Assembly (NCBI RefSeq): GCF_009742705.1
Contig: NZ_WPCU01000001.1
Location: forward strand, 7,088-71,087
Direction: 5' to 3'
Source of the DNA: Auraticoccus cholistanensis
Lineage (GTDB): Bacteria; Actinomycetota; Actinomycetes; Propionibacteriales; Propionibacteriaceae
DNA length: 64,000 bases
The position numbers were made by a program, and so were the translations under genes. Below the pieces are notes generated by a model. It was given only the letters and a program-made list of their open reading frames with translations. It had not been told where the DNA came from and ran no database searches. This document shows, in pieces, positions 22,959 to 36,273 of the stretch (positions are counted from its first letter, which is position 1; each line of letters starts with the position of its first letter).

Positions 22959-23738
22959 TCAGCGCGCCAGCCAGCCGCCGTCCACCGCCAGCAGCGTGCC
23001 GTGCACGTAGTCCGAGGCCGACGAGGCCAGGAAGACCGCCGCCCCGGCCAGGTCCGCCGGGTCGCCCCAGCGCCCGGCGGGGATGCGGGCCAGCAGCTCC
23101 GCGCTGCGCACCGGGTCCTCGCGCAGCGCGGTGTTGTTGTCGGTGGCGATGTAGCCGGGGACGATCGCGTTGACGTTGACGCCCCGGCCGGCCCACTCGT
23201 TCGCCAGCGCCCGCGTCAGCCCGGCGATGCCGTGCTTGGCGGCGGCGTAGCCGGGCACGGTGATGCCGCCCTGGAAGCTCAGCAGCGAGGCGGTGAAGAT
23301 CACCTTGCCCGACCCCCGCTCCAGCATCGGCCGGGCCAGCTGCTGGGTCAGCGCGAACTGGCTGCTGAGGTCGACCTGCAGCACCTCGTCCCAGTCGGCG
23401 AGCGGGTGCTCGGCCGCGGGCGCCCGGCGGATCGTGCCGGCGTTGTTGACCAGGATGTCCACGCCCGGCCGGCGTTCGGCCATCCGCTCGCCCAGCTCCA
23501 GCACCGCGTCGCGGTCGGTGAAGTCGACCTGGGCCACCTCGCAGCGGCGGCCGAGCGCGGTGACCCGCCGCTCCACCTCGCTGCCCGGACCGAGCGTGGC
23601 GCTGACCGCGACCACGTCGGCGCCGGCCGCCGCCAGCCCCTCGGCGACGGCCAGCCCGATGCCGCGGCTGGCCCCCGTCACCAGGGCCGTCCGGCCGGTC
23701 AGGTCGAAGGGGCTGCGCCCCACCGGCTGCCCGCTCAC
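22959..23738 (-). CDS. kduD: 2-dehydro-3-deoxy-D-gluconate 5-dehydrogenase (KduD)
   Basis: This 259-residue SDR reduces 2,5-diketo-3-deoxygluconate to 2-keto-3-deoxygluconate with NAD(P)H, in the breakdown of unsaturated uronates. It has TGASRGIG (21-28), the active-site Ser151, and YAAAK (Y164, K168). KduD-like blocks VNNAGTIRRAPA and NVNAIVPGYIATDNN are clear. The GTG start overlaps the stop of kduI by four bases, so translation is coupled and the pair works as a unit. Pectin, alginate-like or glycosaminoglycan uronates would all feed this step. Confidence 0.92.
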   Translation of the reverse strand: MSGQPVGRSPFDLTGRTALVTGASRGIGLAVAEGLAAAGADVVAVSATLGPGSEVERRVTALGRRCEVAQVDFTDRDAVLELGERMAERRPGVDILVNNAGTIRRAPAAEHPLADWDEVLQVDLSSQFALTQQLARPMLERGSGKVIFTASLLSFQGGITVPGYAAAKHGIAGLTRALANEWAGRGVNVNAIVPGYIATDNNTALREDPVRSAELLARIPAGRWGDPADLAGAAVFLASSASDYVHGTLLAVDGGWLAR

Positions 23739-24550
23739 CGCAGCTCCGCCACGTCGACCGGGTGCATGTCGGCGTAGTCCTGGTTCTCCCCGGCCATCGC
23801 CCACACGAAGGAGTACGCGCTCGTGCCGACGCCGGTGTGCACCGACCAGCCGGGGCTGACCACCGCCTGGTCGTCGGCGACGACGAGCGAGCGGGTGGCG
23901 TCCGGCGGACCCGCCAGGTGCACCACCCGCCCGCTGGTCCCCAGCCCGGTGTAGAGGTAGACCTCGGTGCGCCGGGCGTGGGTGTGGCAGGGCATCGTGT
24001 TCCAGACGCTGCCGGGGGCCAGCGTGGTGATGCCGAGCACGAGGTTGGCCGAGGCGATGCCGTCGGCGTGCACGTAGCGCCGGATGGTGCGCACGTTGGC
24101 CTGCTCCGGCTCGCCGAGGTCGGCGGCGAAGACCTCGTCGCGGCGTCCCACCCGGGTGGGGTGGTCGGCGTGCGCGGGGGCGGAGACCAGGTAGGCCCGG
24201 CCGGTGCCGGCGACCGTGATGTCGGAGGTGCCCCGGCCGACGTACAGGACGTCCAGCTCGTCCAGCCCGTGCTCCTCGCCGTCGCAGTCGACGGTCAGCC
24301 GGCCTCCCAGGCACACCACCGCCAGCTCACGGCGCGAGCACAGCGCCTCGGCCGCCAGCAGCTCCGGCGGCGCCAGCCGGATCAGGTCGTCGGTCAGGAC
24401 CAGCCCGCCGAGCAGCAGCCGGTCGTCGGCGGCGTGGGCCCAGGTGACCTGGCCGGGCACGAACAGCTCCTCGACGAGGAACCGCTCCCGCAGGGCGGTG
24501 GTGTCGAGCCGGGCGAAGTCGTCGGGGTGGGTGGCGGGCAGGGTGCGCAC
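23735..24550 (-). CDS. kduI: 5-dehydro-4-deoxy-D-glucuronate isomerase (KduI)
   Basis: The 271-residue cupin isomerase converts 5-keto-4-deoxyuronate to 2,5-diketo-3-deoxygluconate, the substrate of KduD. The metal ligands are visible as H189, H191 and E196 (CHTHARRTEVYLY) and H238 (WSVHTGVG), the spacing found in E. coli KduI. The protein is cytoplasmic. It is followed by kduD with overlap and preceded 27 bases upstream by the dehydratase gene. No unsaturated glucuronyl hydrolase, KDG kinase or KDPG aldolase is present in the window. Confidence 0.93.
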   Translation of the reverse strand: MRTLPATHPDDFARLDTTALRERFLVEELFVPGQVTWAHAADDRLLLGGLVLTDDLIRLAPPELLAAEALCSRRELAVVCLGGRLTVDCDGEEHGLDELDVLYVGRGTSDITVAGTGRAYLVSAPAHADHPTRVGRRDEVFAADLGEPEQANVRTIRRYVHADGIASANLVLGITTLAPGSVWNTMPCHTHARRTEVYLYTGLGTSGRVVHLAGPPDATRSLVVADDQAVVSPGWSVHTGVGTSAYSFVWAMAGENQDYADMHPVDVAELR

Positions 24551-24577
24551 GCGGCAGCTCCTCGGGGTGGGGGGTGG

Positions 24578-25663
24578 TCAGGGCGTCGGGACGGGCAGGC
24601 CGAAGCCGGGCCGGTCGGGCACGGTGAGGTGGCCCTCGGCGAACAGGTAGGCCGAGGTGTCGACGCCGTCGGTGGTCCCGGGCACGCCCTCGACGATGTC
24701 GACGTTGCCGAGTCCGGCGGCGAGCTGGGCGGCGTACAGCGTCTTCAGCGGACGTCCCCAGGCGTGCGGGGAGGCCTTCACGCCCAGCTGCACGAGCTCC
24801 GGCATCAGCGCCCGCCAGCGGCTGAGCCCGTAGGACATGACGTCCATCAGCAGCACGTCGACGTGACCGCGGCCGGCCACGGGCAGCAGGGCGTCCACGT
24901 CGGGGGAGGTCTCGCCCTCCGCGATCCGGGTGCTGGGGCTCACCTCGTCCAGGTGGCGGCGCAGCGCGGCGAGGTCGTCGGCGTCGTCGAGGAACGGCTC
25001 CTCCACCCAGTACAGGTCCAGGTCGGCGACGGCGTCGACGTACTGGCAGAACCCGCGCAGGTCGTAGCCGTCGTTGGCGTCGACCAGGATCTTGGCGTCG
25101 GGGTAGGCCTCGCGCACCGCCCGGGTCACCTCGATGTCGCGCGGGTCGCCCTCGTGGCGGGGCATCCAGCGGTTGCCGCGGCCGATCTTCAGCTTGAACC
25201 CGCGGTAGCCCAGGGCGTGGTCGTCGAGGCAGTTCTGCAGCGTGACCGCCACCCCGCGGGGCGCGTCCTCGGGGTCGAGGTCGTCGAAGTAGATGGCGCC
25301 GTCGTAGAGCTCCACCGTCGGCTGGCCGTGGTCGCCGAGCAGGGCGTGCACCGGGACGTCCTCGACCACGCCGAGCAGGTCGTGCAGGGCGATGTCGAGC
25401 CAGCGGTGCTCCTCGGAGCGGACGCCGGTGGCCGGGTCGAGCAGCTCCGACAGCGACCGGCCGACGGCGGCGTCGACGTCCCCGCCGGCGCCCTCGACCA
25501 GCCCCCAGCCGACGGCTCCGGAGTCGGTGCGCAGCACGGCGACCTGCGACTCCCCGCCGGAGCCGTGGCTGCCCAGCCGGGCGTTGCGGCCGACGGTGCG
25601 GGGGTAGCGGGTGGGCAGGGCGTGGAGGTCGATCGAGGTGATGGTCGGGTCGGACCGGGACAC
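24578..25663 (-). CDS. Mandelate racemase/enolase-family dehydratase
   Basis: The 361-residue protein is an enolase-superfamily acid-sugar enzyme. Its barrel carries KLK (157-159), metal ligands D195 (VDAND), E221 (WVEEPF) and E249 (AEGETS), and H300 (SPHAWG) as likely general base. These features fit sugar-acid dehydratases such as fuconate or galactarate dehydratase types. The exact substrate cannot be read. The GTG start has TGAGGAG 5 bases upstream. Placed between an IclR regulator and kduI, it probably dehydrates an aldonate or uronate made by the same pathway. Confidence 0.88.
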   Translation of the reverse strand: MSRSDPTITSIDLHALPTRYPRTVGRNARLGSHGSGGESQVAVLRTDSGAVGWGLVEGAGGDVDAAVGRSLSELLDPATGVRSEEHRWLDIALHDLLGVVEDVPVHALLGDHGQPTVELYDGAIYFDDLDPEDAPRGVAVTLQNCLDDHALGYRGFKLKIGRGNRWMPRHEGDPRDIEVTRAVREAYPDAKILVDANDGYDLRGFCQYVDAVADLDLYWVEEPFLDDADDLAALRRHLDEVSPSTRIAEGETSPDVDALLPVAGRGHVDVLLMDVMSYGLSRWRALMPELVQLGVKASPHAWGRPLKTLYAAQLAAGLGNVDIVEGVPGTTDGVDTSAYLFAEGHLTVPDRPGFGLPVPTP

Positions 25664-25729
25664 AGGTGCTCCTCAGGCGTGGCGGTGGGGTCGGGCAGGG
25701 TTCGGGGGCGGGCAGGGTTCGGGGACGGG

Positions 25730-26512
25730 TCAGCGGGACGGGCGGGGTGGCGGGCAGCCGAGGCTGCTGGAGATGGCACGGGCGGTGGCCACGACGGCCT
25801 CGATGATCGAGGTCTCGGCGGCGAGGATGCGGTCCCTCGGGCCGGCGACGCTGATGGCGGCCACCGGACGCCGGGAGGCGTCGCGGATCGGGGCGGCCAG
25901 GCAGCGCACGCCCGGCTCCCGCTCGGAGTCGTCGATCGCGTAGCCGTGCTCGCGGGCCCGCTCGACGGCGGCCAGCACGGCGGGCACGGTGGTCAGCGTG
26001 GTGGGGGTGTAGCCGACGAGGTCCAGGCCCGCGACGATCTCCTCGGCCTCGGCGGCCGGCAGCGCCGACAGGTAGGCCTTGCCCAGACCGGAGGCGTGCA
26101 GCGGCGCCCGGCTGCCCAGCTTGGACGACACCTTGACCACCTGCGGGCCGACCTCCTGCATCACGTAGGCCATCTCGATCCCCTCGGGGACGGCGACGAA
26201 GGCCGTCTCCTCGGTGTCCTCGACCAGGGCCCGCAGGTGGTCGGGGGTGACCTTGAACAGGTCCAGCCCCTCCAGCGCCTGCAGCCCGACGCGGATGGCT
26301 ACCGGCCCGAGCCGCAGGTGGTTCTCGCCGGCCTCGGCGAGGTAGCCCCGCTCGCGCAGCTGGCCGACGATGCGGTAGCCGGCGCTGCGGCTCAGCCCCA
26401 GGGCCGCGCACAGGTCGCTCATCGACCCGCGCTCCACCTCGGCCACCCACTCCAGGATGTCCAGACCACGGGCCAAGGTGCCGGCCGACGTCGTGCTCGC
26501 CTCGGTGCTCAT
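25730..26512 (-). CDS. IclR-family transcriptional regulator
   Basis: The 260-residue protein has an N-terminal winged helix (about 10-70; TLARGLDILEWVAEVERGSMSDLCAALGLSRSAGYRIVGQLRERGYL) and an IclR effector domain (about 85-250). IclR proteins often control uronate and aromatic catabolism and bind short odd-centred palindromes. One such palindrome lies before the binding-protein gene of this operon. The frame extends 17 codons upstream, but ATG 26512 is favoured by GGGAG/CGGAG just before it. It sits inside the operon between permease and dehydratase. Confidence 0.88.
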   Translation of the reverse strand: MSTEASTTSAGTLARGLDILEWVAEVERGSMSDLCAALGLSRSAGYRIVGQLRERGYLAEAGENHLRLGPVAIRVGLQALEGLDLFKVTPDHLRALVEDTEETAFVAVPEGIEMAYVMQEVGPQVVKVSSKLGSRAPLHASGLGKAYLSALPAAEAEEIVAGLDLVGYTPTTLTTVPAVLAAVERAREHGYAIDDSEREPGVRCLAAPIRDASRRPVAAISVAGPRDRILAAETSIIEAVVATARAISSSLGCPPPRPSR

Positions 26513-26567
26513 CTCCGAATTCTCCCCCAGCGTGCGCGGGGGCCCGGTGGCAGCGGTCTCCACGCCG

Positions 26568-27467
26568 TCAGCCCTTCAGCCCGGACCGGGCGACACCGGC
26601 GATGACGTAGCGCTGCACGAAGGCGAACAGGATCAGCACCGGGATGCTGGCCAGCGCGGCGCCGGCCATGATCGCCGGGTAGTCGGTGGCGTAGGAGCCG
26701 CGCAGCGTGGACAGCCCCGCCGGCAGGGTGAGGTTCTCGGGGTTGAACAGCACGTACAGCGGCCAGAGGAAGTCGTTCCAGCTGCCCAGGAAGGACAGCA
26801 CGCCGAGGGTGGCGAGCGGGGCCTTGGACAGCGGCAGCACCACCCGGGTGAAGATCTGGAAGCGGTTGGCGCCGTCGATCAGCGCGGCCTCCTCCAGCGC
26901 CTCGGGCAGCGAGGCGAAGAACTGCCGCAGGAAGAAGACACCGAACGCGCTGGCCGCGCCGGGCACCACCAGGGCCCAGATGCTGTCCAGCCAGTCCAGC
27001 TGGTCCACGATCAGGTAGTTCGGCATCAGGAAGACGAACCCGGGCACGAAGAGCGTGGCGATGATGAGCGCGAAGACCACGTTGCGTCCCCGGAAGTGCA
27101 TCCGGGCCAGCGGGTAGGCCGCGGCGGAGGCGGTGACGAGCACCAGCACGGTGTGCAGCACCGCCACCAGCACCGAGTTGGCCAGCCACCGCAGCACCGG
27201 GGCCTGGGCGTCGGCGAACAGCGAGGTGTAGCCCTCCACCGACGGCTCCGGCGGGATCCACTGCGGGGGCATCGCGGTGGCGTCCCCGGTGGTCTTGAAC
27301 GAGGTGGACAGCATCCACAGCAGCGGCGCGACGATGATCACCGACAGGATCAGCAGCGCGGCGTAGAGCAGCAGCGTGCCGGTCAGGCCGCGGGGACGTC
27401 GTCGGGTCGGGGCGGCCGGGGCGGTCTCGGGGGTGAGGGTGGGACGGTCGACGGTGAGGGTCGCCAC
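26568..27467 (-). CDS. CUT1 sugar ABC transporter permease (MalG type)
   Basis: This 299-residue membrane subunit has six predicted helices and the EAA loop EEAALIDGANRFQIFTRVVLPLS. The C-terminal tail VIAGVARSGLKG is typical. The GTG start lies one base beyond the stop of its partner permease. The module it belongs to should import a uronate-containing oligosaccharide or sugar acid, judged from kduI/kduD downstream. Confidence 0.92.
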   Translation of the reverse strand: MATLTVDRPTLTPETAPAAPTRRRPRGLTGTLLLYAALLILSVIIVAPLLWMLSTSFKTTGDATAMPPQWIPPEPSVEGYTSLFADAQAPVLRWLANSVLVAVLHTVLVLVTASAAAYPLARMHFRGRNVVFALIIATLFVPGFVFLMPNYLIVDQLDWLDSIWALVVPGAASAFGVFFLRQFFASLPEALEEAALIDGANRFQIFTRVVLPLSKAPLATLGVLSFLGSWNDFLWPLYVLFNPENLTLPAGLSTLRGSYATDYPAIMAGAALASIPVLILFAFVQRYVIAGVARSGLKG

Positions 27468-27468
27468 G

Positions 27469-28428
27469 TCAGCGCTCCTTCTGGCGTAGGAAGACGAAGT
27501 TGAGGGCGCTGACGAGGATCAGCAGGAGCGCGAGCAGGTAGCTCATGGCTGCGCCCTTGCCCATGCGGAACTGCTCCAGGCCGACCTGGGCGATGTACAT
27601 GATCGCCGTGCGGGTCTCGTTGGACGGGTTGCCGCTGGTGAGCAGGTAGGACTGCCCGAACATGTTGGCCGAGGCCAGGATCGTCATGGTGAGCACGAAC
27701 AGGATCACCGGTCGCAGCTCGGGCAGGGTGACGTGCACGAACTCGCGCCATGGGCCGGCGCCGTCGACCTTGGCGGCGTCGTAGAGGTTCTCGTCGACGC
27801 CCTGCAGGCCGGCCAGGTAGACCACGGAGTTGAAGCCCATCGTCCACCAGACCGTCACCCCGACCAGGGAGACCCACACCCACGGCAGGGCGGTCAGCCA
27901 GGGGATCTTCTCGTCCAGGCCCAGCTGGGTGAGGTAGCCGTTGACCAGACCGGTGTTGGCGTTGAGCAGGTACTGCCACAGCAGCCCGATGACGCTGACG
28001 CCGAGCACGTAGGGGGCGAAGAAGACGGCGCGGAAGAAGGTCCGGCCGCGGAAGCGGCGGTTCAGCAGCAGCGCCAGGCCGAGCGGGATCACCATCAGCA
28101 GCGGCACCGACAGCACCACGAAGATGCCGGTGGCTCGCATGCTCTCCCAGAACTGCTGGGCCACCAGGGCGCCGGGGGTGAACAGCTCGACGTAGTTCTG
28201 CAGCCCGACGAAGGGCTGCTCGGGCAGGAAGAAGTCCCAGTTGTGCAGGCTCATCCAGAACCCGTAGAGGGCCGGCGCCAGCACGAACGTCACGAAGATC
28301 AGCAGGAAGGGTGCCAGGAACGCGTAGGGCGTCCAGGCGCGGGGGCGGTGCGGCGCCCGGCCCGGGTCGCCCGCCCGGACGGAGGCCACGGCGCGCACGG
28401 GCGCCGGGACCGGGGTGGTGGCGGTCAT
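27469..28428 (-). CDS. CUT1 sugar ABC transporter permease (MalF type)
   Basis: The 319-residue permease has a cytoplasmic N-terminus of about 35 residues, six predicted helices and the loop YDAAKVDGAGPWREFVHVTLPEL, in which the usual E of the EAA motif is D. Its ATG overlaps the TGA of the binding-protein gene (TGATG), giving coupled translation. Confidence 0.92.
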   Translation of the reverse strand: MTATTPVPAPVRAVASVRAGDPGRAPHRPRAWTPYAFLAPFLLIFVTFVLAPALYGFWMSLHNWDFFLPEQPFVGLQNYVELFTPGALVAQQFWESMRATGIFVVLSVPLLMVIPLGLALLLNRRFRGRTFFRAVFFAPYVLGVSVIGLLWQYLLNANTGLVNGYLTQLGLDEKIPWLTALPWVWVSLVGVTVWWTMGFNSVVYLAGLQGVDENLYDAAKVDGAGPWREFVHVTLPELRPVILFVLTMTILASANMFGQSYLLTSGNPSNETRTAIMYIAQVGLEQFRMGKGAAMSYLLALLLILVSALNFVFLRQKER

Positions 28429-29771
28429 CAGCGGGCCTCTCGGTACTTGGTCAGGTTCTCCTCCAGCAGGAACGAGGCCTGCTCGGTGGCCCTGGCCAGG
28501 GCGTCAGCGGGGGCGATCTGGCCGAGCAGGGCGTCGCCGATCGCGGGGTAGAGGATGGTGGTCTGGACCTCGGCGATGCCGGGCACCAGCGGGTAGAAGC
28601 GGATGTGCTCGACCCCCTCGGCCACGTGCGACTGGGCGGTGAGCTCGGCGAACTCGGGCTGCTGCAGGATCGGCAGCCGGGCCGGCACCGGGCCGGCCTT
28701 GGCCCAGCCGATGGAGTTGGCCATGATCCAGCGCAGGAACGTGACCACGGCCGTCACCCGGTCGGGGTCGAACTCGCGCTGGCGCATCAGCACGAACTGG
28801 TGCGAGCCGGAGAAGGCGGCCCGGTGGGGGCCGATCTGCGGCAGCGGGGCGACGTCCCAGTCGAGGTCCTCGACCTTGGCCAGGTCGTTGATCAGCGCGC
28901 CCGGGCCGCCCCACAGGAAGGCGTTCTGGTCGTTCTTGAACGCGACGTTGGCGTCGGAGCCGCTGACGTCGCTGGGGCTCCAGCCGTTGGCGATGAGGGA
29001 GTGCTGCCACTCCAGGGCTCTGATGCCGGCGTCCTCGCCGAACAGCGCCCGTCCGCCCTCGGCGTCGTAGAGCTCGCCGCCCATCTGCCACAGCAGCGAG
29101 TCGAAGCCGCGGCCCACGCCCTGGGGGTCGATGGCCGGCAGCCAGTGGCCCTGGATGTCGCGGCGGCGCAGCTCCTCGAGCGCGTGCTCGTACTCGGCGC
29201 GGTTGGTGGGCGGGGCGTCGGGGTCCAGGCCCGCCTGCTCCAGCACCCGCCGGTTGTAGAAGAGGCTGTCGGGCCACATGTCCAGCGGCAGCGACCAGCG
29301 CTGGCCCTGGAAGAGGCCCGAGCCCCAGACGACCGGCAGGTAGTCCGACTCCTGCAGGCCGAGCGCGTCGACCAGCGGGTCGAGCGGCACGATGACCCGG
29401 CGGGCGGCGTTGGTGGCCACCTGGAAGTTGTGCATCAGCCCGAAGTCGGGGGCCAGTCCGCTCACCACCGCGGCCGGGAACTTCTGGTAGAAGTTCCCCC
29501 ACGGGATCGCGTACATCTCGATGCGGATCGCCGGGTGCGCAGCGGTGAACTCCTGCAGCAGCGTCCGCATCACCGGCCCGTCGCCGCCGGTCAACCCGTT
29601 CCAGAACTGCAGGGTGATCGGCGGGCCGTCGTAGTCCCCGCTCACCTGGGGCAGCTCGGTGCTGTCGTCCACCGGGCGGCCGCACGCGGCCAGCCCCGCG
29701 ATCCCCGCCAGCCCGAGGGCACCCGTCCCGCGCAACATCGTCCGCCGACTCAATCTCGGTGCGGCCGTCAT
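28428..29771 (-). CDS. Sugar-binding lipoprotein of uronate-locus ABC importer
   Basis: The 447-residue family 1 solute-binding protein has a Tat motif (LSRRTMLRG) and lipobox GLAAC. ITLQFWNGLTGGDGPVM starts the mature fold. ATG 29771 follows TGGAG by 5 bases and is preferred over a GTG six bases upstream. It is the first gene of a seven-gene minus-strand operon running through IclR, dehydratase, kduI and kduD. The promoter and an operator palindrome lie just upstream. Confidence 0.92.
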   Translation of the reverse strand: MTAAPRLSRRTMLRGTGALGLAGIAGLAACGRPVDDSTELPQVSGDYDGPPITLQFWNGLTGGDGPVMRTLLQEFTAAHPAIRIEMYAIPWGNFYQKFPAAVVSGLAPDFGLMHNFQVATNAARRVIVPLDPLVDALGLQESDYLPVVWGSGLFQGQRWSLPLDMWPDSLFYNRRVLEQAGLDPDAPPTNRAEYEHALEELRRRDIQGHWLPAIDPQGVGRGFDSLLWQMGGELYDAEGGRALFGEDAGIRALEWQHSLIANGWSPSDVSGSDANVAFKNDQNAFLWGGPGALINDLAKVEDLDWDVAPLPQIGPHRAAFSGSHQFVLMRQREFDPDRVTAVVTFLRWIMANSIGWAKAGPVPARLPILQQPEFAELTAQSHVAEGVEHIRFYPLVPGIAEVQTTILYPAIGDALLGQIAPADALARATEQASFLLEENLTKYREAR

Positions 29772-29786
29772 GGGCACTCCATTGTC

Positions 29787-29815
29787 GTCCCGATCATCGG
29801 GACTCGTGTCCCGAT
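29787..29815 (-). promoter_or_regulatory. Operator candidate for IclR regulator
   Basis: GTCCCGATCATCGGGAC (29787-29803) is a perfect 8-base-arm palindrome with a single-base centre. An extra half-site GTCCCGAT follows at 29808-29815. It lies between the -10 box and the ribosome site of the importer operon, where a repressor would block elongation. Odd-centred 15- to 17-base palindromes suit IclR proteins, and the operon encodes one. The pairing is inference. Confidence 0.55.
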
Positions 29816-29823
29816 GAGCAGGA

Positions 29824-29853
29824 AGGCTAGTGGTGCCGCTCAGCGCCGGTCAA
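29824..29853 (-). promoter_or_regulatory. Promoter of the uronate importer operon
   Basis: TTGACC, an 18-base spacer and TAGCCT precede the operon on the minus strand. The -35 region reads CGACCCTTGACC, close to the ACCCTTGACG boxes at 2.9 kb and the CGACCCTTTACA of the next divergent operon. Confidence 0.55.
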
Positions 29854-29880
29854 GGGTCGACCCCGCCCTTTCGCCCGGCG

Positions 29881-30176
29881 CCCCGCCCGCCCCTGCCTGC
29901 GTGTATGTCGATGCGGTCATCCCCGGCGCGCCGCGGCGTGTCGGGCTGTACGGGCGTCACGGCGTACACGAATGCAGGGATGACCGCCGGCGACCCCTCT
30001 GCCTGAGCCCGGTCGACGGCTCGAGGCGCGGCCGCCGGAGCTGGAGGGTGCGCGCGCGAGGGTGCGGGGGCGACGTCCCTGAGGACGTGTACGCCGACGT
30101 AGCCGCACACTGCGACACGCCGCGACACACCGGGAGTGCCCGCATCGACATACACGTGGTCAGGGTGCGGGCGGGG
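29881..30176. repeat. Inverted pair of 89-base hairpin repeats in 543-base gene-free gap
   Basis: The gap between two divergent importer operons holds two related units, 29891-29979 and 30077-30165, in opposite orientation and about three-quarters identical. Each folds as an outer 6-bp stem, a 3x3 internal loop, an 11-bp stem (CGTGTAYGYCG with CGRCRTACACG, wobbles included) and a 49-base loop. The outer stem reads CCCTGC/GCAGGG in one unit and CCCTGA/TCAGGG in the other, a compensatory change. A perfect inverted 10-mer, CCCCGCCCGC, bounds the pair at 29881-29890 and 30167-30176. No convincing gene is present. It could be a REP/MITE-like element or a structured regulatory region. Confidence 0.7.
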
Positions 30177-30216
30177 AGGGGTGGGCCTGGCGGTCGGGCG
30201 GGATCTGCGCCGACCC

Positions 30217-30246
30217 TTTACATTGTTGTATACAACATTGTAGAAC
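30217..30246 (+). promoter_or_regulatory. Promoter with nested operator palindromes
   Basis: TTTACA (30217-30222), an 18-base spacer and TAGAAC (30241-30246) form a promoter for the importer/sulfatase operon. The spacer is a dyad centred on TTGTATACAA (30225-30234, perfect over TGTTGTATACAACA). Its two halves are TACATTGTTGTA and TACAACATTGTA. TTGTATACAA is the classical operator core of GntR/FadR-type sugar-acid repressors. TACAACATTGTAGAA recurs exactly upstream of the GH43 gene near 54.15 kb. Confidence 0.6.
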
Positions 30247-30314
30247 TGTCCGAGGAGGCTGACCGGCCGGCTTGGGCGGGGTGCAGCGACAGGTGCGACG
30301 ACGAGGTGGACACC

Positions 30315-31844
30315 ATGACCGACAACCGCTTTCCCGCCCGCGCGGCGGCCGTGCTCCCGACCCGACGCCAGCTGCTGGCCGGAGCCGGCGGCGTCGCCGC
30401 CGGTGCCGTGCTGGCGGCCTGCAGCACCGCGCCCTCCGGGGGTGGCGGCGGCCCCTCCGGCGGCCAGCCCGGCACGGGCGCGACCGGCGGCGGCACCACC
30501 GGCGGCACCGGTCCGCTGACCTGGTGGGACCAGTTCGCCCCCCTGCAGGACCTGCAGAAGGCGACCTTCCAGCGCTTCGCCGGCCAGGGCGGGCCCCAGG
30601 TCGAGTACACCGTCTACAACCCCAACGAGCAGGGGCAGGCGCTGCAGCTGGCCTTCTCCAGCCAGCAGCTGCCCGACGTCTTCAGCCTGGCCGGCGTGGG
30701 CGTCCCGCCGTCGGTGCTGATGAACCAGGGCTGGTTCTCCCCGCTGGCCAACGGCGAGGAGCTGCGCTCGGCCGTCCCCGAGGGCACGCTGATCGAGGGC
30801 CTGCACTCCTTCGACGACCAGCTGTACTCCTTCCCCATCTTCAGCACCCGCCAGTACGACGGCCTGCTCTGGTACAGCCGCTCGGCGGTCGAGGCGGCCG
30901 GGCTCGACCCGGACACCCCGCCGGCCTCCTGGGACGACCTGCGCGCCGCGGCCCGCGCGGTGCAGGACAGCGGTACCTCCGGTCTGCTGCTGCCGCTGCA
31001 GTTCGGCGAGCGGATGGCCACCTTCGTCCTGGAGCTCGCCCAGGCCGCCGGCTTCCCCGGCGCCACCCAGGGCGGCTCCAACGGCGTCGACCTGTCGACG
31101 GGGGAGTACGCCTACCACCACGACTCGGTGGTCTCGGCCATCGAGTTCCTGCTCTCGTTCCAGACCGACGGCCTGCTCTTCCCGGCCAGCTCCTCGCTGG
31201 ACGCCCGCGCCGGACGTGCGCGCTGGGCCGCCGGCGGTGCCGCCTTCTTCCTCGACGGCCCCTACTGCCCAGGCGTGGTGGTGCGCGACTTCGCCGCCTT
31301 CGCCGACCAGCTCGCCGTGGGCGCGCTGCCCACCCCCGACGGCAGCGCCCCGGTGCTCAACCGCACGCCGGTCGGCGGCACCTTCTGGGTGTCGGGCCAG
31401 TCCGACCAGGTCGACCAGGCCGCCGAACTGCTGGCCCTGCTCGTCGGCGAGGAGTACCAGGCCGGGCTCGCCGAGGCGATGGACCAGCCCCCGTTCGACC
31501 TCGCCGCGGTGGCCGGCTCCGGCGCCCACCCCACCTACAAGCGTGCGGTCGAGATGTTCGGCGAGCAGGTCTTCGTGGCCCCCGCCCCGCAGGCCCGCCC
31601 CGGGGTCACCGACGTCGAGGCCGCGATGGGCACGGTCGAGCCCGGGCTCGGGGCCATCGTCCAGGGCGCCTTCTCCGGCCAGGTCAGCGACGTCCGCGGC
31701 GCGCTCCGCGAGCTGAGCGACAAGCTGACCGCCGCCCGCGAGAAGGCCGTCGCCGAGGTCGGCGGCGACGTGTCGGTCGAGAGCTGGGCCTTCCCCGAGT
31801 GGCAGCCCGGCACCGACTTCGACGTCAGCGGCTACGCCCGGTGA
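30315..31844 (+). CDS. Sugar-binding lipoprotein of sulfatase-linked ABC importer
   Basis: This 509-residue solute-binding protein has a TRRQLLAG twin-arginine-like signal and lipobox VLAAC. A Gly-rich linker (about 45-72) follows, then LTWWDQFAPLQDLQKATFQRF at the start of the mature lobe. It is longer than usual for the family. The ATG follows GGTGG by 5 bases. The stop overlaps the first permease gene by 4 bases. As a sulfatase follows in the operon, the ligand may be a sulfated glycan fragment. Confidence 0.9.
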   Translation: MTDNRFPARAAAVLPTRRQLLAGAGGVAAGAVLAACSTAPSGGGGGPSGGQPGTGATGGGTTGGTGPLTWWDQFAPLQDLQKATFQRFAGQGGPQVEYTVYNPNEQGQALQLAFSSQQLPDVFSLAGVGVPPSVLMNQGWFSPLANGEELRSAVPEGTLIEGLHSFDDQLYSFPIFSTRQYDGLLWYSRSAVEAAGLDPDTPPASWDDLRAAARAVQDSGTSGLLLPLQFGERMATFVLELAQAAGFPGATQGGSNGVDLSTGEYAYHHDSVVSAIEFLLSFQTDGLLFPASSSLDARAGRARWAAGGAAFFLDGPYCPGVVVRDFAAFADQLAVGALPTPDGSAPVLNRTPVGGTFWVSGQSDQVDQAAELLALLVGEEYQAGLAEAMDQPPFDLAAVAGSGAHPTYKRAVEMFGEQVFVAPAPQARPGVTDVEAAMGTVEPGLGAIVQGAFSGQVSDVRGALRELSDKLTAAREKAVAEVGGDVSVESWAFPEWQPGTDFDVSGYAR

Positions 31845-32815
31845 GCACCACGACGGCGCCGCTGCCCACCGCGGCCGCCGGCCCCACCCCGGGAGCGGAC
31901 CCGGCGAGCCGGCACCGGGCGAGGCAGCACGCCGCCCGCTGGTGGATCTACCTGTTCCTGCTGCCCACGGCCGTCCTCTACGGCGCCTACACGCTGTGGC
32001 CGGTGCTGGCCAGCTGGTGGTACTCGCTGCTGTCGTGGAGCGGCTTCGAGAGCGAGAAGACCTTCGTCGGGCTGCAGAACTACGCCGACGTCCTGGCCGA
32101 CCCGCTCTTCCTCAACTCCTTCAAGCTCACCCTGCTGTTCATGGTGGTGACGGTCCCGCTGCGGGTCTTCGCCGCGCTGGCGCTGGCCGTCCTGCTGAAC
32201 CACCCGCGGCTGCCGCTGCAGCGGCTGTTCCGCACCGCCTTCTTCCTGCCGGTGGTGACCACCACGGCCATCGTCGGCGTCGTGATGCAGTTCATCTTCG
32301 ACCCCGCCAGCGGCCCGGTGAACCTGGCCCTGGGCGGTCTGGGGATCCCGCCGGTGGACTGGCTGGGCTCGCCGGAGACGGCGCTGTGGACGGTCATGGT
32401 CGTCCACACCTGGAAGTGGCTGGGCGTCACGATGATCTACTGGCTCGCCGCGCTGCAGACCATCCCGCGGGAGCTGGTCGAGGCCGCCCAGGTGGACGGT
32501 GCCGACGCGCGCCGCACCTTCACCTCCATCACGCTGCCGCTGATGGTGCCCTTCCTCGTCATCATCACGCTGCTGACGGTGGAGCAGAACCTGCAGGTGT
32601 TCGACCTCATGCTGACCATGACCGGCGGCGGGCCCTTCTTCGCCACCGAGGTCATCGAGCTCTACATCTACCGCTGGGCCTTCGCCAGCTCGGTGCCGCA
32701 GCTCGGCTTCGCCTCCGCCGCCGCCGTGGTGCTGGGACTCGTGCTGCTGGTGATCGGCGTCGGGCAGCTGCTCGGCATCCGGGCCGCCCGCCGGCTGGCC
32801 GGGGGCGGGCGGTGA
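31841..32815 (+). CDS. CUT1 sugar ABC transporter permease (MalF type)
   Basis: The 324-residue permease has six predicted helices and the EAA loop EAAQVDGADARRTFTSITLPL. GTGA overlaps couple it to both neighbours: its GTG overlaps the stop of the binding-protein gene, and its own TGA overlaps the start of the next permease. WWIYLFLLPTAVLYGAY forms the first helix. Confidence 0.92.
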   Translation: MSTTTAPLPTAAAGPTPGADPASRHRARQHAARWWIYLFLLPTAVLYGAYTLWPVLASWWYSLLSWSGFESEKTFVGLQNYADVLADPLFLNSFKLTLLFMVVTVPLRVFAALALAVLLNHPRLPLQRLFRTAFFLPVVTTTAIVGVVMQFIFDPASGPVNLALGGLGIPPVDWLGSPETALWTVMVVHTWKWLGVTMIYWLAALQTIPRELVEAAQVDGADARRTFTSITLPLMVPFLVIITLLTVEQNLQVFDLMLTMTGGGPFFATEVIELYIYRWAFASSVPQLGFASAAAVVLGLVLLVIGVGQLLGIRAARRLAGGGR

Positions 32816-33690
32816 GCGCCGCCGCGGCACCGGACGTCCCGGTGCGCCCGCCCCGCCGACGCTCCCCGCGACGGCTGCGGCTGTGGCTGGCGACCGTGCT
32901 GCTGCTGGCGGTGGCGGCGGTGTGGGTCTACCCGTTCGCGTGGGTGGTCTCGGCCTCGCTCAAGGACCAGCTCGAGGTCTTCACCGCCGGGCTCGACCTG
33001 GTGCCGGAGTCGCCGCAGTGGGGCAACTACGCCCGCGCCTGGGTGGACGCCGACTTCGCCGGGTACATGCTCAACACCGTGCTGGTCACCGTCGGCACGG
33101 TGGCGGTGGTGGTGATCCGCTGCGCCATGGCGGGCTACGTGCTGGCCCGCTACGACTTCCTCGGCCGCAAGGCGGTGCTGCTGGTGCTGGTGGTGACGCT
33201 GTTCGTGCCGGCCGGCTACACCATCATCCCGGTGGTGGAGCTGACCCAGCAGCTGGGCCTGCTCAACTCGCTGACCGGCATGGTGGTCGCCCTCTCCGGC
33301 GGCGGGCACGTGGCCGCGGTGCTGCTCTACATGGGCTACTTCCGCGGCATCCCCCGCGAGCTGGAGGAGGCGGCGGTGATCGACCGGGCCGGCTTCTTCA
33401 CCATCTTCACCCGGGTGATGCTGCCGCTGGCGGGCCCGGTCACCGCGACCGTGGTGGTGCTGACCTTCCTGGCCACCTGGAACGCCTTCTTCCTGCCGCT
33501 GGTGTTCACCTTCAGCCGCCCCGAGCTGCGCACCCTCAGCGTCGGCATGCAGGCATTCGTCGGCCAGAACTCGGTCGACTGGCCGGGCATGGCCGCCGCC
33601 GGCACCATCTCGCTGCTGCCCATCGTGGCCCTCTTCCTGGTGCTGCAGCGCTACTTCTTCGACGGAATCGCAGGAGCTGTGAAGTCATGA
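32812..33690 (+). CDS. CUT1 sugar ABC transporter permease (MalG type)
   Basis: The 292-residue second permease has six predicted helices. Its EAA loop reads EEAAVIDRAGFFTIFTRVMLPLA, with R in place of the usual G after ID, a small deviation at the ATPase-docking site. The GTG start overlaps the preceding stop by 4 bases, and its TGA overlaps the sulfatase ATG in the same way. Confidence 0.91.
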   Translation: MSAAAAPDVPVRPPRRRSPRRLRLWLATVLLLAVAAVWVYPFAWVVSASLKDQLEVFTAGLDLVPESPQWGNYARAWVDADFAGYMLNTVLVTVGTVAVVVIRCAMAGYVLARYDFLGRKAVLLVLVVTLFVPAGYTIIPVVELTQQLGLLNSLTGMVVALSGGGHVAAVLLYMGYFRGIPRELEEAAVIDRAGFFTIFTRVMLPLAGPVTATVVVLTFLATWNAFFLPLVFTFSRPELRTLSVGMQAFVGQNSVDWPGMAAAGTISLLPIVALFLVLQRYFFDGIAGAVKS

Positions 33691-35150
33691 CCCAGACCCC
33701 GGACCGCGGCACGCAGCCGCCCAACATCCTGCTGATCTGCACCGACCAGCAGCGCTACGAGGCCCTCGGCGCCTACGGCAGCCCGCACGTCCAGACCCCG
33801 AACCTGGACCGGCTCGCCGGCCAGGGGGTGCTGTTCGAGAGCTGCTACGTGCAGTCCACGGTGTGCGCGCCCTCGCGGGCCACCCTGATGACCAGCCGCT
33901 ACGTCTCCAACCACGGGCTGTGGGCCAACGGGGTCGACCTGCACCCGTCGACCCGGCTGTTCACCCGCGAGCTGGCCGACGCCGGCTACGACTGCGGGCT
34001 GGTCGGCAAGCTGCACCTCGGCTCCTGCTTCGCCGGCCGCTCCGAGCCGCGCGTCGACGACGGGCTGCGGGTCTTCCGCTGGGCCCACGACCCCTACCGC
34101 GGCTCCTCGGAGAACGCCTACCACCGCTGGCTGCAGGCCGCCCACCCCGACCTGTACGCCGCCGCCCTGAGCGGTGAGGGCGAGCACGACTGGGACACCA
34201 TGCCCACCGAGGCCCACTACAGCCACTGGATCGCCGAGGAGACCATCGACTTCCTGCGCTCCTCCCGCCGCGACGGCCAGCCGTTCTGCTTCATCGCCAA
34301 CTTCTTCGACCCCCACCACGGCTTCGGCGCGCCGAAGGAGTACCTGGACCGCTACGCCGACGTCGACCTGCCCGACCCGGTGACCGTCCCCGGCGAGCTG
34401 GAGGGCAAGCCGCCGGTCTTCACCGAGGCGTCGCGACGCTCCTACGCCGGGCACGCCAAGGGCTACCAGGAGTACAGCGAGGCCGAGCTGGCCGAGGCCC
34501 GCCGGGCCTACTACGCCATGGTCACCCTGGTCGACGACGAGGTAGGGCGGATCCTCGACGCCCTGGAGGCCGAGGGGCTGGCCGAGAACACCCTGGTGGT
34601 GTTCACCAGCGACCACGGCGAGATGCTCGGCGACCACCAGCTGATGCTCAAGGGACCGATGGTCTACGACGTCGCGGTGCGGGTGCCGCTGCTGCTGCGC
34701 TGGCCGGGCGTGCTGCCGGCCGGGGAGCGGCGCAGCGAGCTGGTGCAGTGGGTCGATCTGGCGCCGACGCTGCTGGAGGCCGCCGGGGTCGCCGCGCCGC
34801 GGGACTACCAGGGCGAGAGCCTGCTGCCGCTGGCCGCCGGGCAGCCCGACGCCTGGAGCCGGGACTGGGCGCTGTGCCAGTACCGCGACTCCGGGCACGG
34901 TTACGACCCGCCGGTGCACGTCACGATGCTGCGCTCCGGCTCCCACAAGCTGGCGGTGCACCACGGCCGGCCGACCAGCAACCGCGACGGCTCGGGCGAG
35001 CTCTACGACCTGGCCGCCGACCCCGACGAGCTGCACAACCTGTGGGACGACGAGGCCGCCGCCGCCACCCGCCACCGGCTGACCGCCCTGCTGCTGGACG
35101 TGCTGGTCGCGGTCGAGGACCGCAGCAGCCCGCGGCTCGCGCACTGGTGA
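33687..35150 (+). CDS. Type I sulfatase (formylglycine-dependent), cytoplasmic
   Basis: This 487-residue sulfatase has the activation motif C60-A-P-S-R64, where the Cys must become formylglycine. Metal-ligand aspartates lie at the N-terminus (LLICTDQQR) and in SDHGEMLGDH. There is no signal peptide, so it would remove sulfate from sugars after import, in line with its four-base overlap with the importer genes. It has the general look of exo-acting carbohydrate sulfatases, but the position attacked cannot be read. No formylglycine-generating enzyme or anSME is in the window. Confidence 0.9.
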   Translation: MTQTPDRGTQPPNILLICTDQQRYEALGAYGSPHVQTPNLDRLAGQGVLFESCYVQSTVCAPSRATLMTSRYVSNHGLWANGVDLHPSTRLFTRELADAGYDCGLVGKLHLGSCFAGRSEPRVDDGLRVFRWAHDPYRGSSENAYHRWLQAAHPDLYAAALSGEGEHDWDTMPTEAHYSHWIAEETIDFLRSSRRDGQPFCFIANFFDPHHGFGAPKEYLDRYADVDLPDPVTVPGELEGKPPVFTEASRRSYAGHAKGYQEYSEAELAEARRAYYAMVTLVDDEVGRILDALEAEGLAENTLVVFTSDHGEMLGDHQLMLKGPMVYDVAVRVPLLLRWPGVLPAGERRSELVQWVDLAPTLLEAAGVAAPRDYQGESLLPLAAGQPDAWSRDWALCQYRDSGHGYDPPVHVTMLRSGSHKLAVHHGRPTSNRDGSGELYDLAADPDELHNLWDDEAAAATRHRLTALLLDVLVAVEDRSSPRLAHW

Positions 35151-35184
35151 GGGCGGGGAGCCGTCCGGACGCCGCCCACCCGTC

Positions 35185-35204
35185 GCCGGCGGCCGCCCGC
35201 CGGC
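35185..35204 (+). terminator. Hairpin after sulfatase gene
   Basis: GCCGGCGG and CCGCCGGC form a perfect 8-bp stem around CCGC, 34 bases after the sulfatase stop and before the LacI gene. There is no T tract. It may terminate or attenuate transcription into the regulator gene. Confidence 0.4.
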
Positions 35205-35274
35205 AGCGGATCGGCGCATCGCCCGGTGCCGCACGGGCTAGGCTCGACCGGCACCGGGAGGACGGAGGCGGGTC

Positions 35275-36273
35275 GTGGCCGTGGGGCTGAAGGACGTCGC
35301 CCAGCGCGCCGGCGTGTCCATCAAGACCGTCTCCAACGTGGTCAACGGCTACCCCCACATCACGCCCGCGACCCGGGCCAAGGTCACCGCCGCCATCGAG
35401 GAGCTGGGCTACCGGCCCAACCTGTTCGGCCGCAGCCTGCGCACCGGCCGCACCGGGGTGATCGCGCTGGCGGTCCCGGCCATCGACAACCCCTACTACG
35501 CGGCCCTGGCCCGCGCGGTGATCAAGGCGGCCGAGGAGCTGCGCTGGACGGTGCTGGTCGACCAGACCGACGGCTCGCCCGAGCGAGAGCGGCTGGTGTT
35601 GGACGGCATCCGCGACCGGATGATCGACGGGCTGCTCTTCGCCCCCCGCAGCGTCTCGGCCCGCGTGCTGGCCGACAGGCCGGCGGAGGTGCCGCTGGTG
35701 CTGCTGGGCGACCGGGTCTCCGACCCCGGGCTGGACCGGGTCACCGTGGACAGCGTCGCGGTGGGGGAGGCGGCCACCCGGCACCTGCTCGAGCTGGAAC
35801 GCACCCGGGTCGCCGCGCTGGGCACCAGCACCGAGGACACCATGGCGGCGGCGCGGCTGCAGGGGGTGCGGCAGGCCCTGCAGGCCGCCGGGCTCCGTCC
35901 GCAGCCGGAGCTGGAGCTGGTGGTCGAGCACTGGGACCACGCCAGCGGTCAGCAGGCCACCGACCGGCTGCTCGCCTCGGGGGCGCCCTTCGACGCCCTC
36001 GTCTGCTTCAACGACGCCCTCGCGCTCGGTGCCGTGCACGCCCTGCAGCAGGCCGGCCGGACCATCCCCGCCGACGTCGCGGTGATCGGCGTCGACGACG
36101 TGCCGGCCTCCCGTTTCCTGTGGCCGCCGCTGTCCTCGGTGCGGCTCGACATCGCCGCCATCGCGGACCACGCGGTCACCCTGCTGGCCGAGCGCATCGC
36201 CGACCGGCAGCGGGAGGTGCGCCACGTCACGGCCGGTTTCGAGGTCGTCCCGCGCGCCAGCACGGTCGGCTGA
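35275..36273 (+). CDS. LacI-family transcriptional regulator
   Basis: The 332-residue repressor has a LacI helix-turn-helix (LKDVAQRAGVSIKTVSNVVNGYPHITPATRAKV, residues 5-37), a hinge helix (YRPNLFGRSLRTGRTG), and a periplasmic-binding-type ligand domain to the end. The GTG follows GGAGG by 6 bases. It lies 124 bases after the sulfatase gene, on the same strand, so it probably controls the importer/sulfatase operon. The palindrome TGCCACGTGGCA 43 bases beyond its stop may also belong to it. Confidence 0.9.
   Translation: MAVGLKDVAQRAGVSIKTVSNVVNGYPHITPATRAKVTAAIEELGYRPNLFGRSLRTGRTGVIALAVPAIDNPYYAALARAVIKAAEELRWTVLVDQTDGSPERERLVLDGIRDRMIDGLLFAPRSVSARVLADRPAEVPLVLLGDRVSDPGLDRVTVDSVAVGEAATRHLLELERTRVAALGTSTEDTMAAARLQGVRQALQAAGLRPQPELELVVEHWDHASGQQATDRLLASGAPFDALVCFNDALALGAVHALQQAGRTIPADVAVIGVDDVPASRFLWPPLSSVRLDIAAIADHAVTLLAERIADRQREVRHVTAGFEVVPRASTVG

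Follow-up and report, generated by a model that had tools for sequence, protein, structure and literature searches.

The hairpin pair that lies between two divergent importer operons of Auraticoccus cholistanensis represents a single copy of a dispersed repeat family that is non-coding and restricted to this lineage. We interpret the family as REPIN- or BIME-like elements inserted near the 3′ ends of genes, with a unit that most likely forms a folded structure at the 3′ end of mRNA, and we place the probability of this reading at roughly 0.55. Units of the family have a fixed length and a strand polarity, occur near gene ends, face inward wherever they form doublets, and are absent from most of the orthologous sites compared. 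We note that coordinates without a locus name refer to the window, the whole stretch of 64,000 nt that was analysed, and that gene positions are calls by a simple script.

At the window locus, unit A (29891–29979, + strand, CCCTG...CAGGG) and unit B (30077–30165, − strand) are 89 nt apiece, face inward, and are separated by a spacer of 97 nt (29980–30076). As the first-pass annotation had described, the two units are of equal length, opposite in orientation, and 74% alike; the arms of the inverted pair (29891–29980 and 30076–30165) are 74% complementary. The matching ends, described there as 10 bases long, were confirmed as outer ends of 13 nt (29881–29893 and 30164–30176) with 92% complementarity. 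Sequence and flank composition place a C-rich tract 5′ of unit A (29866–29890, + strand, G-rich on the other strand) and a second one 5′ of unit B on the − strand (30166–30190, G-rich on +). Unit A scored 85.6 bits and unit B 90.4 bits with model R1, which was itself built with both units. The outer stem of unit A pairs 29891–29895 with 29975–29979 (helix 1, 93.7% of cells paired in 70 units), and the middle stem pairs 29902–29911 (TGTATGTCGA) with 29959–29968 (helix 2, 92.1% of cells paired in 70 units), the final position of its 5′ arm being unpaired in the window copy. Alignment columns and fold predictions place an inner hairpin at 29920–29948, in which a mostly invariant G faces a variable C or T. 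With 0.19 occurrences of the core motif expected in the window, the two observed are far more than chance would give. When cut to the unit, the two window copies had z-scores of −4.6 and −3.6 in sense and −0.7 and −0.7 in antisense; unit A with 10–11 nt of flank per side reached only −1.69, with 11 out of 200 shuffles equally stable. For the whole 296-nt doublet, a long stable hairpin was predicted (DNA z −8.5). A search of Rfam with 29700–30400 (E up to 5) gave no match on the element and one weak microRNA match outside it (30266–30346), and no U-tail (intrinsic) terminator was found within 29600–30500.

The genes around this copy fall into two clusters (22959–36273). The left cluster encodes a solute-binding protein, two permeases, an IclR regulator (25730–26563), an enolase-superfamily protein, a KduI/IolB family protein, and a short-chain dehydrogenase, and may serve in uronate use. 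The right cluster encodes a solute-binding protein, two permeases, a sulfatase, and a LacI regulator. Two palindromes flank the element, TACATTGTTGTATACAACATTGTA at 30219–30242 and TCCCGATCATCGGGAC/GTCCCGATGAGCAGGA at 29788–29823, and close forms of both occur in the orthologous gap of the other Auraticoccus species. From their sequence, they look like putative operators, the former of the right importer operon and the latter of the left one; which regulator families act on them is an assumption of ours.

Searching the genome of the window (G000) with the 296-nt stretch returned 67 match rows at E ≤ 0.001, and the hairpin pair is therefore a member of a repeat family. This number includes the query itself, and a single unit often produced a match on each strand. 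A covariance-model search for further copies, proposed in the first-pass annotation, gave the same answer of a dispersed repeat: the model, built from 70 units, found 50 full units in 30 loci of A. cholistanensis (51 matches, one of which was weak and read a unit in reverse) and 23 units in G001, the sole other species of the genus among the listed relatives and hereafter the sister species. The collected set from both genomes comprised 73 units in 43 loci, after a partial + unit of locus L037 that adjoins masked bases was dropped. Unit length was exactly 89 nt in 72 of the 73 units. Twenty-nine loci held doublets, inward-facing in 29 out of 29 cases, with outer lengths of 239–319 nt (median 265) and spacers of 61–141 nt (median 87), and the remaining 14 loci held 15 lone units.

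Outside the genus, carriers were few. G027, which we take to be Desertihabitans aurantiacus, had at least nine matches, including one inward pair, to model R1, which was not built from its rows. One further genome of the bacterial family (G030) had two weak R1 matches (34–35 bits), and its scores with model R2 are not independent, as its rows went into building that model. Counting the own genome each time, carriers were 4 out of 197 family genomes, 5 out of 293 order genomes, and 2 out of 394 class genomes; the order sample added G212, with a single weak match, and the class sample added none, and since 10–21 candidates were scored per genome in the wider-spread samples, weak copies there may be missed. 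The element had no match in the collections of known phages and plasmids searched. Judged by the titles listed, the literature searched held no report of this family. In a table of PMC12306157, Acidipropionibacterium thoenii is entered with what seem to be counts of predicted short palindromes, and generic REP predictions thus exist in this bacterial family. G030 also has a small hairpin family of its own (loci L084–L088), of which two matches are long and three are half-length. Its ends read CTGAGATC...GATTCAG and its stem CACGTCGTCG/CGACGACGTG, and it is perhaps a distant form of the 89-nt element.

Comparison of orthologous gaps suggests that the element has turned over between species. Six gaps were compared, two of which came to hand via nearby units in both species, and in five of these the element was absent from the other species. 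In the sister species, the gap corresponding to that of the window lies between orthologous divergent genes (86% and 80% DNA identity), has about 200 nt between matched flanks, keeps both operator-like palindromes (TCCCGAT.ATCGGGA and TTGTATACAA-type), and contains no unit. The element would have been inserted into the window gap after the split of the two species, unless it was lost from the other one. Locus L012 has 378 nt where the sister species has 28 nt between matched flanks, and the called genes at L025 are about 390 nt apart, compared with about 20. The unit of L039 is absent from both Desertihabitans (about 150 nt between flanks) and the sister species (about 2 kb of other sequence), and the L049 doublet of the sister species is absent from A. 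cholistanensis, which has about 2.3 kb of other DNA between the same flanks. The sixth gap (L016) was ambiguous, with 4.9 kb between the flank orthologues in the sister species, containing other genes and a mid-placed doublet that adjoins neither flank. These observations support the suggestion in the first-pass annotation that a REP- or MITE-like element landed between the two operons: copies are many, carrier relatives are few, and the orthologous gap of the sister species lacks the element. Several gaps that hold the element in one genome are filled in a relative by about 2–5 kb of unrelated sequence, namely L012 in Desertihabitans, L049 in A. cholistanensis, and both L016 and L039 in the sister species, which gives these gene ends the look of general sites for insertion. 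No target duplication was visible by eye at two empty sites (L012/L113 and L025/L049), where the outer limits of the element are fuzzy.

The unit tree grouped copies by species, with 5 changes compared with a shuffled mean of 17.5 (0 out of 500 shuffles as few). Tips were long (0.138, compared with 0.033 for internal branches) and support reached 0.9 at only 4 of 67 nodes; arm labels carry no information in this tree because locus orientation is arbitrary. We interpret the species-wise grouping with long tips as copies that probably multiplied separately in each species and then diverged, with length and paired positions kept.

Columns of the unit alignment fall into invariant blocks and almost free ones. 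Nearly invariant are the blocks TGTATGTC and CGCGGCGTGTCG, and the core contains, by eye, a 10-nt direct repeat. A structure derived from the consensus (outer stem of 5 bp, middle stem of 10 bp, inner hairpin) paired 92.7% of cells, compared with 25%–59% when partners were slid. The first-pass annotation had taken a covarying pair at the end of the outer stem (C:G in one window copy, A:T in the other; columns 9–87) as a sign that the fold is kept. This argument fails within the genus, and the fold is instead supported by other evidence. A standard pair at these columns was present in 29 out of 70 units, compared with 25.5 in shuffled data (P about 0.18), two-sided changes across the consensus structure showed no excess over shuffles within the genus, and none of the seven pairs predicted by RNAalifold had two-sided changes. 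Adding Desertihabitans and the two weak G030 rows raised the count to 15 pairs with two-sided changes, compared with 11.0 in shuffles (12 out of 500), but 16 were found with partners slid by one column. Within the genus, stem positions are conserved rather than covarying.

Substitution patterns suggest that this conservation acts on one strand. Paired columns changed at a rate of 0.067 per cell and unpaired columns at 0.265. Transitions that keep a pair on the sense strand, with G·U counted, were favored over those that break one (99 out of 2170 compared with 29 out of 1330), whereas the same transitions read on the other strand showed 65 out of 2170 and 63 out of 1330, so that pair-keeping, G·U-tolerant substitutions were favored on the sense strand only; since the structure came from the same consensus, the absolute numbers lean towards structure, which should not affect the strand difference. 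Rates of C>T and G>A were 0.060 and 0.016 in paired columns and 0.059 and 0.047 in unpaired columns. Free folding pointed the same way, with the sense strand more stable than the antisense strand in 63 out of 70 units (mean z −2.03 compared with −1.25), and with z below −2 for 32 out of 70 units in sense, fewer than half, and 14 in antisense. In A. cholistanensis, the 50 units depart from the consensus by about 13%–14%, or roughly 590 substitutions compared with one length change, which argues that individual copies are under selection. Judged from these substitutions and predicted folds, the constraint on the unit is that of a single strand that folds and is read in a single direction.

Two other sources of constraint were considered and rejected. 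Pairing between the arms of a doublet is not the conserved fold in A. cholistanensis, where arms of the same locus were about as alike as arms of different loci (0.810 compared with 0.804, with 780 out of 2000 permutations as high); in the sister species, likeness within loci was above that between loci (0.775 compared with 0.750, 2 out of 2000 permutations). Protein coding was rejected as well: one frame is open, but a length of 89 cannot be divided by 3, and third positions of this frame are by eye if anything the most conserved. We also observed that the adjacent bases at alignment columns 28–29 were CG in 32 units, GC in 31, and CC in 7, and never GG across the 70 units.

The 50 nt 5′ of the unit are rich in C and poor in G. 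In A. cholistanensis these flanks had a mean C content of 0.57 and a G content of 0.23 (49 units), compared with 0.39 and 0.38 after 163 other stop codons of its loci, and the bias was weaker in the sister species (0.50 and 0.26). Runs of four C-tracts, of the type that forms a G-quadruplex on the other strand, occurred in the 50-nt flank of 21 out of 49 units in A. cholistanensis and 2 out of 23 in the sister species. When the flank was taken as 60 nt and the initial 5 nt of each unit were included, these numbers were 29 out of 49 and 7 out of 23, compared with 8 out of 163 in the 65 nt after control stop codons, an excess that is clear in A. cholistanensis and weak in the sister species. C content was alike for units behind a co-oriented gene and for the others (0.55 compared with 0.54), which we interpret as the tract belonging to the element, with no adaptation to a given gene.

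Units are placed between genes and often shortly behind them. By our own gene calls, none of the units in the 43 loci lay inside a gene, and the few overlaps with a gene end were at most about 23 nt (L028). Gaps that hold units were tandem in 29 cases, convergent in 10, and divergent in 5 (n = 44), compared with 68, 17, and 29 among 114 other gaps of at least 30 nt (Fisher P = 0.08 for divergent gaps). Of the gaps that hold the 29 doublets, 19 were tandem, 7 convergent, and 3 divergent, and in a tandem gap one arm of every doublet is necessarily antisense to its neighbor. Where a unit stands behind a co-oriented gene (46 out of 72), it starts a median of 30.5 nt past the stop codon, and the remaining 26 units are a median of 70.5 nt from the adjacent gene, with one unit adjoining masked bases left out of both medians. 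The 85 proteins encoded beside units (86 flanking gene calls, minus L026:3265–3786 and L039:1714–2262, plus the gene between the L028 units) matched 194 Pfam families of mixed functions, none of which was matched by more than three proteins. The window copy sits between divergent genes and is an exception in the family; it is probably neutral at its site, and an RNA role there is probably absent.

Lone units give a view of single arms in relation to the gene they follow. Leaving out L037, 12 out of 14 lone units were co-oriented with that gene (null 0.447 from gap types, P = 0.002), with L030 and L036 as exceptions, and 10 out of 12 were co-oriented when the two L028 units were removed (P = 0.007). 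Co-orientation was found for four of seven lone units in Desertihabitans, and the pooled total was 16 out of 21 (P = 0.003). In A. cholistanensis, lone units were as close to the consensus as paired ones (0.856, n = 12, compared with 0.870, n = 38; P = 0.45). Around the 14 lone-unit loci, we found a partial partner in L037 and a very weak inward candidate in L036 (7.2 bits, E 0.2), which may therefore be a decayed doublet, and no partner remnant at the others.

We interpret these patterns as an inserted family with a likely role at the 3′ end of mRNA. An element would consist of a C-rich tract, an 89-nt unit, a spacer, an inverted 89-nt unit, and a G-rich tract, and each unit would fold into two stems, an outer one of 5 bp and a further one of 10 bp, and an inner hairpin rich in G·U pairs. 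We infer a mobilizing step, transcription, and an RNA role for the family: elements would spread as inward-facing doublets by a putative enzyme other than any found in our analysis, copies landing just past a stop codon would probably be transcribed, and there the unit would most likely provide the upstream mRNA with a stable 3′-terminal hairpin, leading to end protection or assisted termination. The doublet rule and the mostly unshared sites fit REPINs. Since orthologous sites with and without the element occur in the two species, both the 3′-end RNA role and the mobilizer are open to testing.

The usual explanation for REP and REPIN palindromes is the Y1 transposase that goes with them. We found no match to the Y1 transposase family (PF01797) in either Auraticoccus genome (0 out of 2), compared with 5 out of 14 control genomes, and a RAYT was rejected as the mobilizer on this ground. 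At L028, two inward units 0.9 kb apart enclose a DUF559/restriction-endonuclease-like gene (L028:2773–3642), the one gene found between inward units, which is not a transposase and whose final codons are read from the 3′ unit. This gene was also rejected as the mobilizer, as DUF559 had four matches in A. cholistanensis and three in the sister species, and only that of L028 adjoins units.

The closest alternative is that the family is purely selfish DNA of REPIN or MITE type, in which the doublet replicates, as is described for the inverted doublet of REPINs (PMC3116915), a putative enzyme recognizes folded single-stranded DNA, the host gains no function, and the 3′-end placement arises only because insertions in genes and promoters are selected against. 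The constant inward doublets, the mostly unshared sites with species-wise amplification, the C-tract that is independent of gene context, and the decayed doublets at L037 and perhaps L036 are all consistent with this, and published REP dimers are likewise placed after genes (PMC3733652). We consider it a possible but somewhat unlikely account, however, as lone units in A. cholistanensis are conserved like doublet units, whereas singlets of Pseudomonas REPINs are described as more diverse (PMC3116915). In addition, the 12 out of 14 lone units that are oriented with the upstream gene, mostly with no partner remnant, and the absence of a Y1 transposase match in both Auraticoccus genomes speak against it, and a single length change in 73 units would be odd for decaying copies. 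We are more doubtful that the family is a separate class of mobile element with RNA as its working form. Such a class would be a fixed-length, direction-specific 3′-end hairpin of 89 nt, copied as inward pairs by machinery not of the RAYT type and then kept singly where it serves the mRNA of the preceding gene.

A host terminator or 3′-end processing element is also unlikely. The C-rich, G-poor tract could then be a Rho loading site, the hairpin a stop or protection signal, and the doublets two-way terminators, and the strand-polar fold, the distance past stop codons, and the orientation of lone units would suit such a function. However, two-way termination is uncalled for in most doublets, with 19 out of 29 tandem, 7 convergent, and 3 divergent, the C-tract is unaffected by how genes are oriented, the window gap holds no U-tail terminator, and sites are mostly unshared between species. 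REPs serve as sites for IHF, DNA polymerase I, and gyrase according to one published description (PMC6006769), and a double-stranded site for a nucleoid or topology protein could account for the nearly invariant blocks (TGTATGTC and CGCGGCGTGTCG), the 10-nt direct repeat of the core, and the fixed length. We regard this as very improbable, since neither the asymmetry of C>T and G>A in paired columns (0.060 compared with 0.016) nor the better fold of the sense strand is expected of a duplex. Least probable of all is a structure that regulates the two importer operons, the other option raised in the first-pass annotation: the element does lie between their divergent starts, but both operator-like palindromes persist in the sister species, where the element is missing, and copies elsewhere flank unrelated genes whose 85 proteins are of mixed families.

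Among known systems, Rho-dependent terminators share a C-rich, G-poor tract followed by structure past stop codons, but differ from this family, which consists of dispersed copies of one sequence with a tract that is indifferent to gene orientation. MITEs are likewise short, apparently non-autonomous, and multi-copy, with inverted ends; in contrast, the family has internal hairpins and a fixed unit length, and no autonomous partner with these ends was seen in our analysis. GTAG- and CGTC-tagged REP families resemble it in occurring mostly as head-to-head dimers after ORFs, in unidirectional and convergent gaps (PMC3733652). The CGTC families are marked in a table of that paper as without a transposase-gene association, but their stems of 8–9 bp and loops of 4–5 differ from the 89-nt unit, and the term Actinobacteria is absent from its main text (PMC3733652). 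By eye, we saw no such tag at the foot of the hairpin in the Auraticoccus unit; the unit begins with CCCTG after the C-rich flank, and the letters CGTC occur within the 5′ arm.

The closest likeness is to the REPINs and BIMEs of Pseudomonas and Escherichia coli, which are also dispersed intergenic doublets of inverted palindromes with variable spacers, occur as singlets too, and have a predicted single-strand fold, G-T pairs in their stems, and a place after genes (PMC3116915, PMC3733652). The position of the Auraticoccus units after stop codons and their G·U-tolerant stems fit the case made for REPs as RNA elements (PMC3733652). The Auraticoccus unit, at 89 nt, differs from the 20–40 bp (PMC3733652) or 21–65 nt (PMC6006769) given for those elements. 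Unlike them, the Auraticoccus family has a C-rich 5′ flank, about 30 loci, and, in A. cholistanensis, singlets as conserved as its doublets. The two genomes, neither of which gave a match to the Y1 transposase family, contain REPIN-like doublets with units of fixed length, and the singlets look maintained, not decayed. Together, the unit length, the missing Y1 match, and these singlets lead us to read it as a REPIN-like inserted family and not as a plain member of the REPINs.
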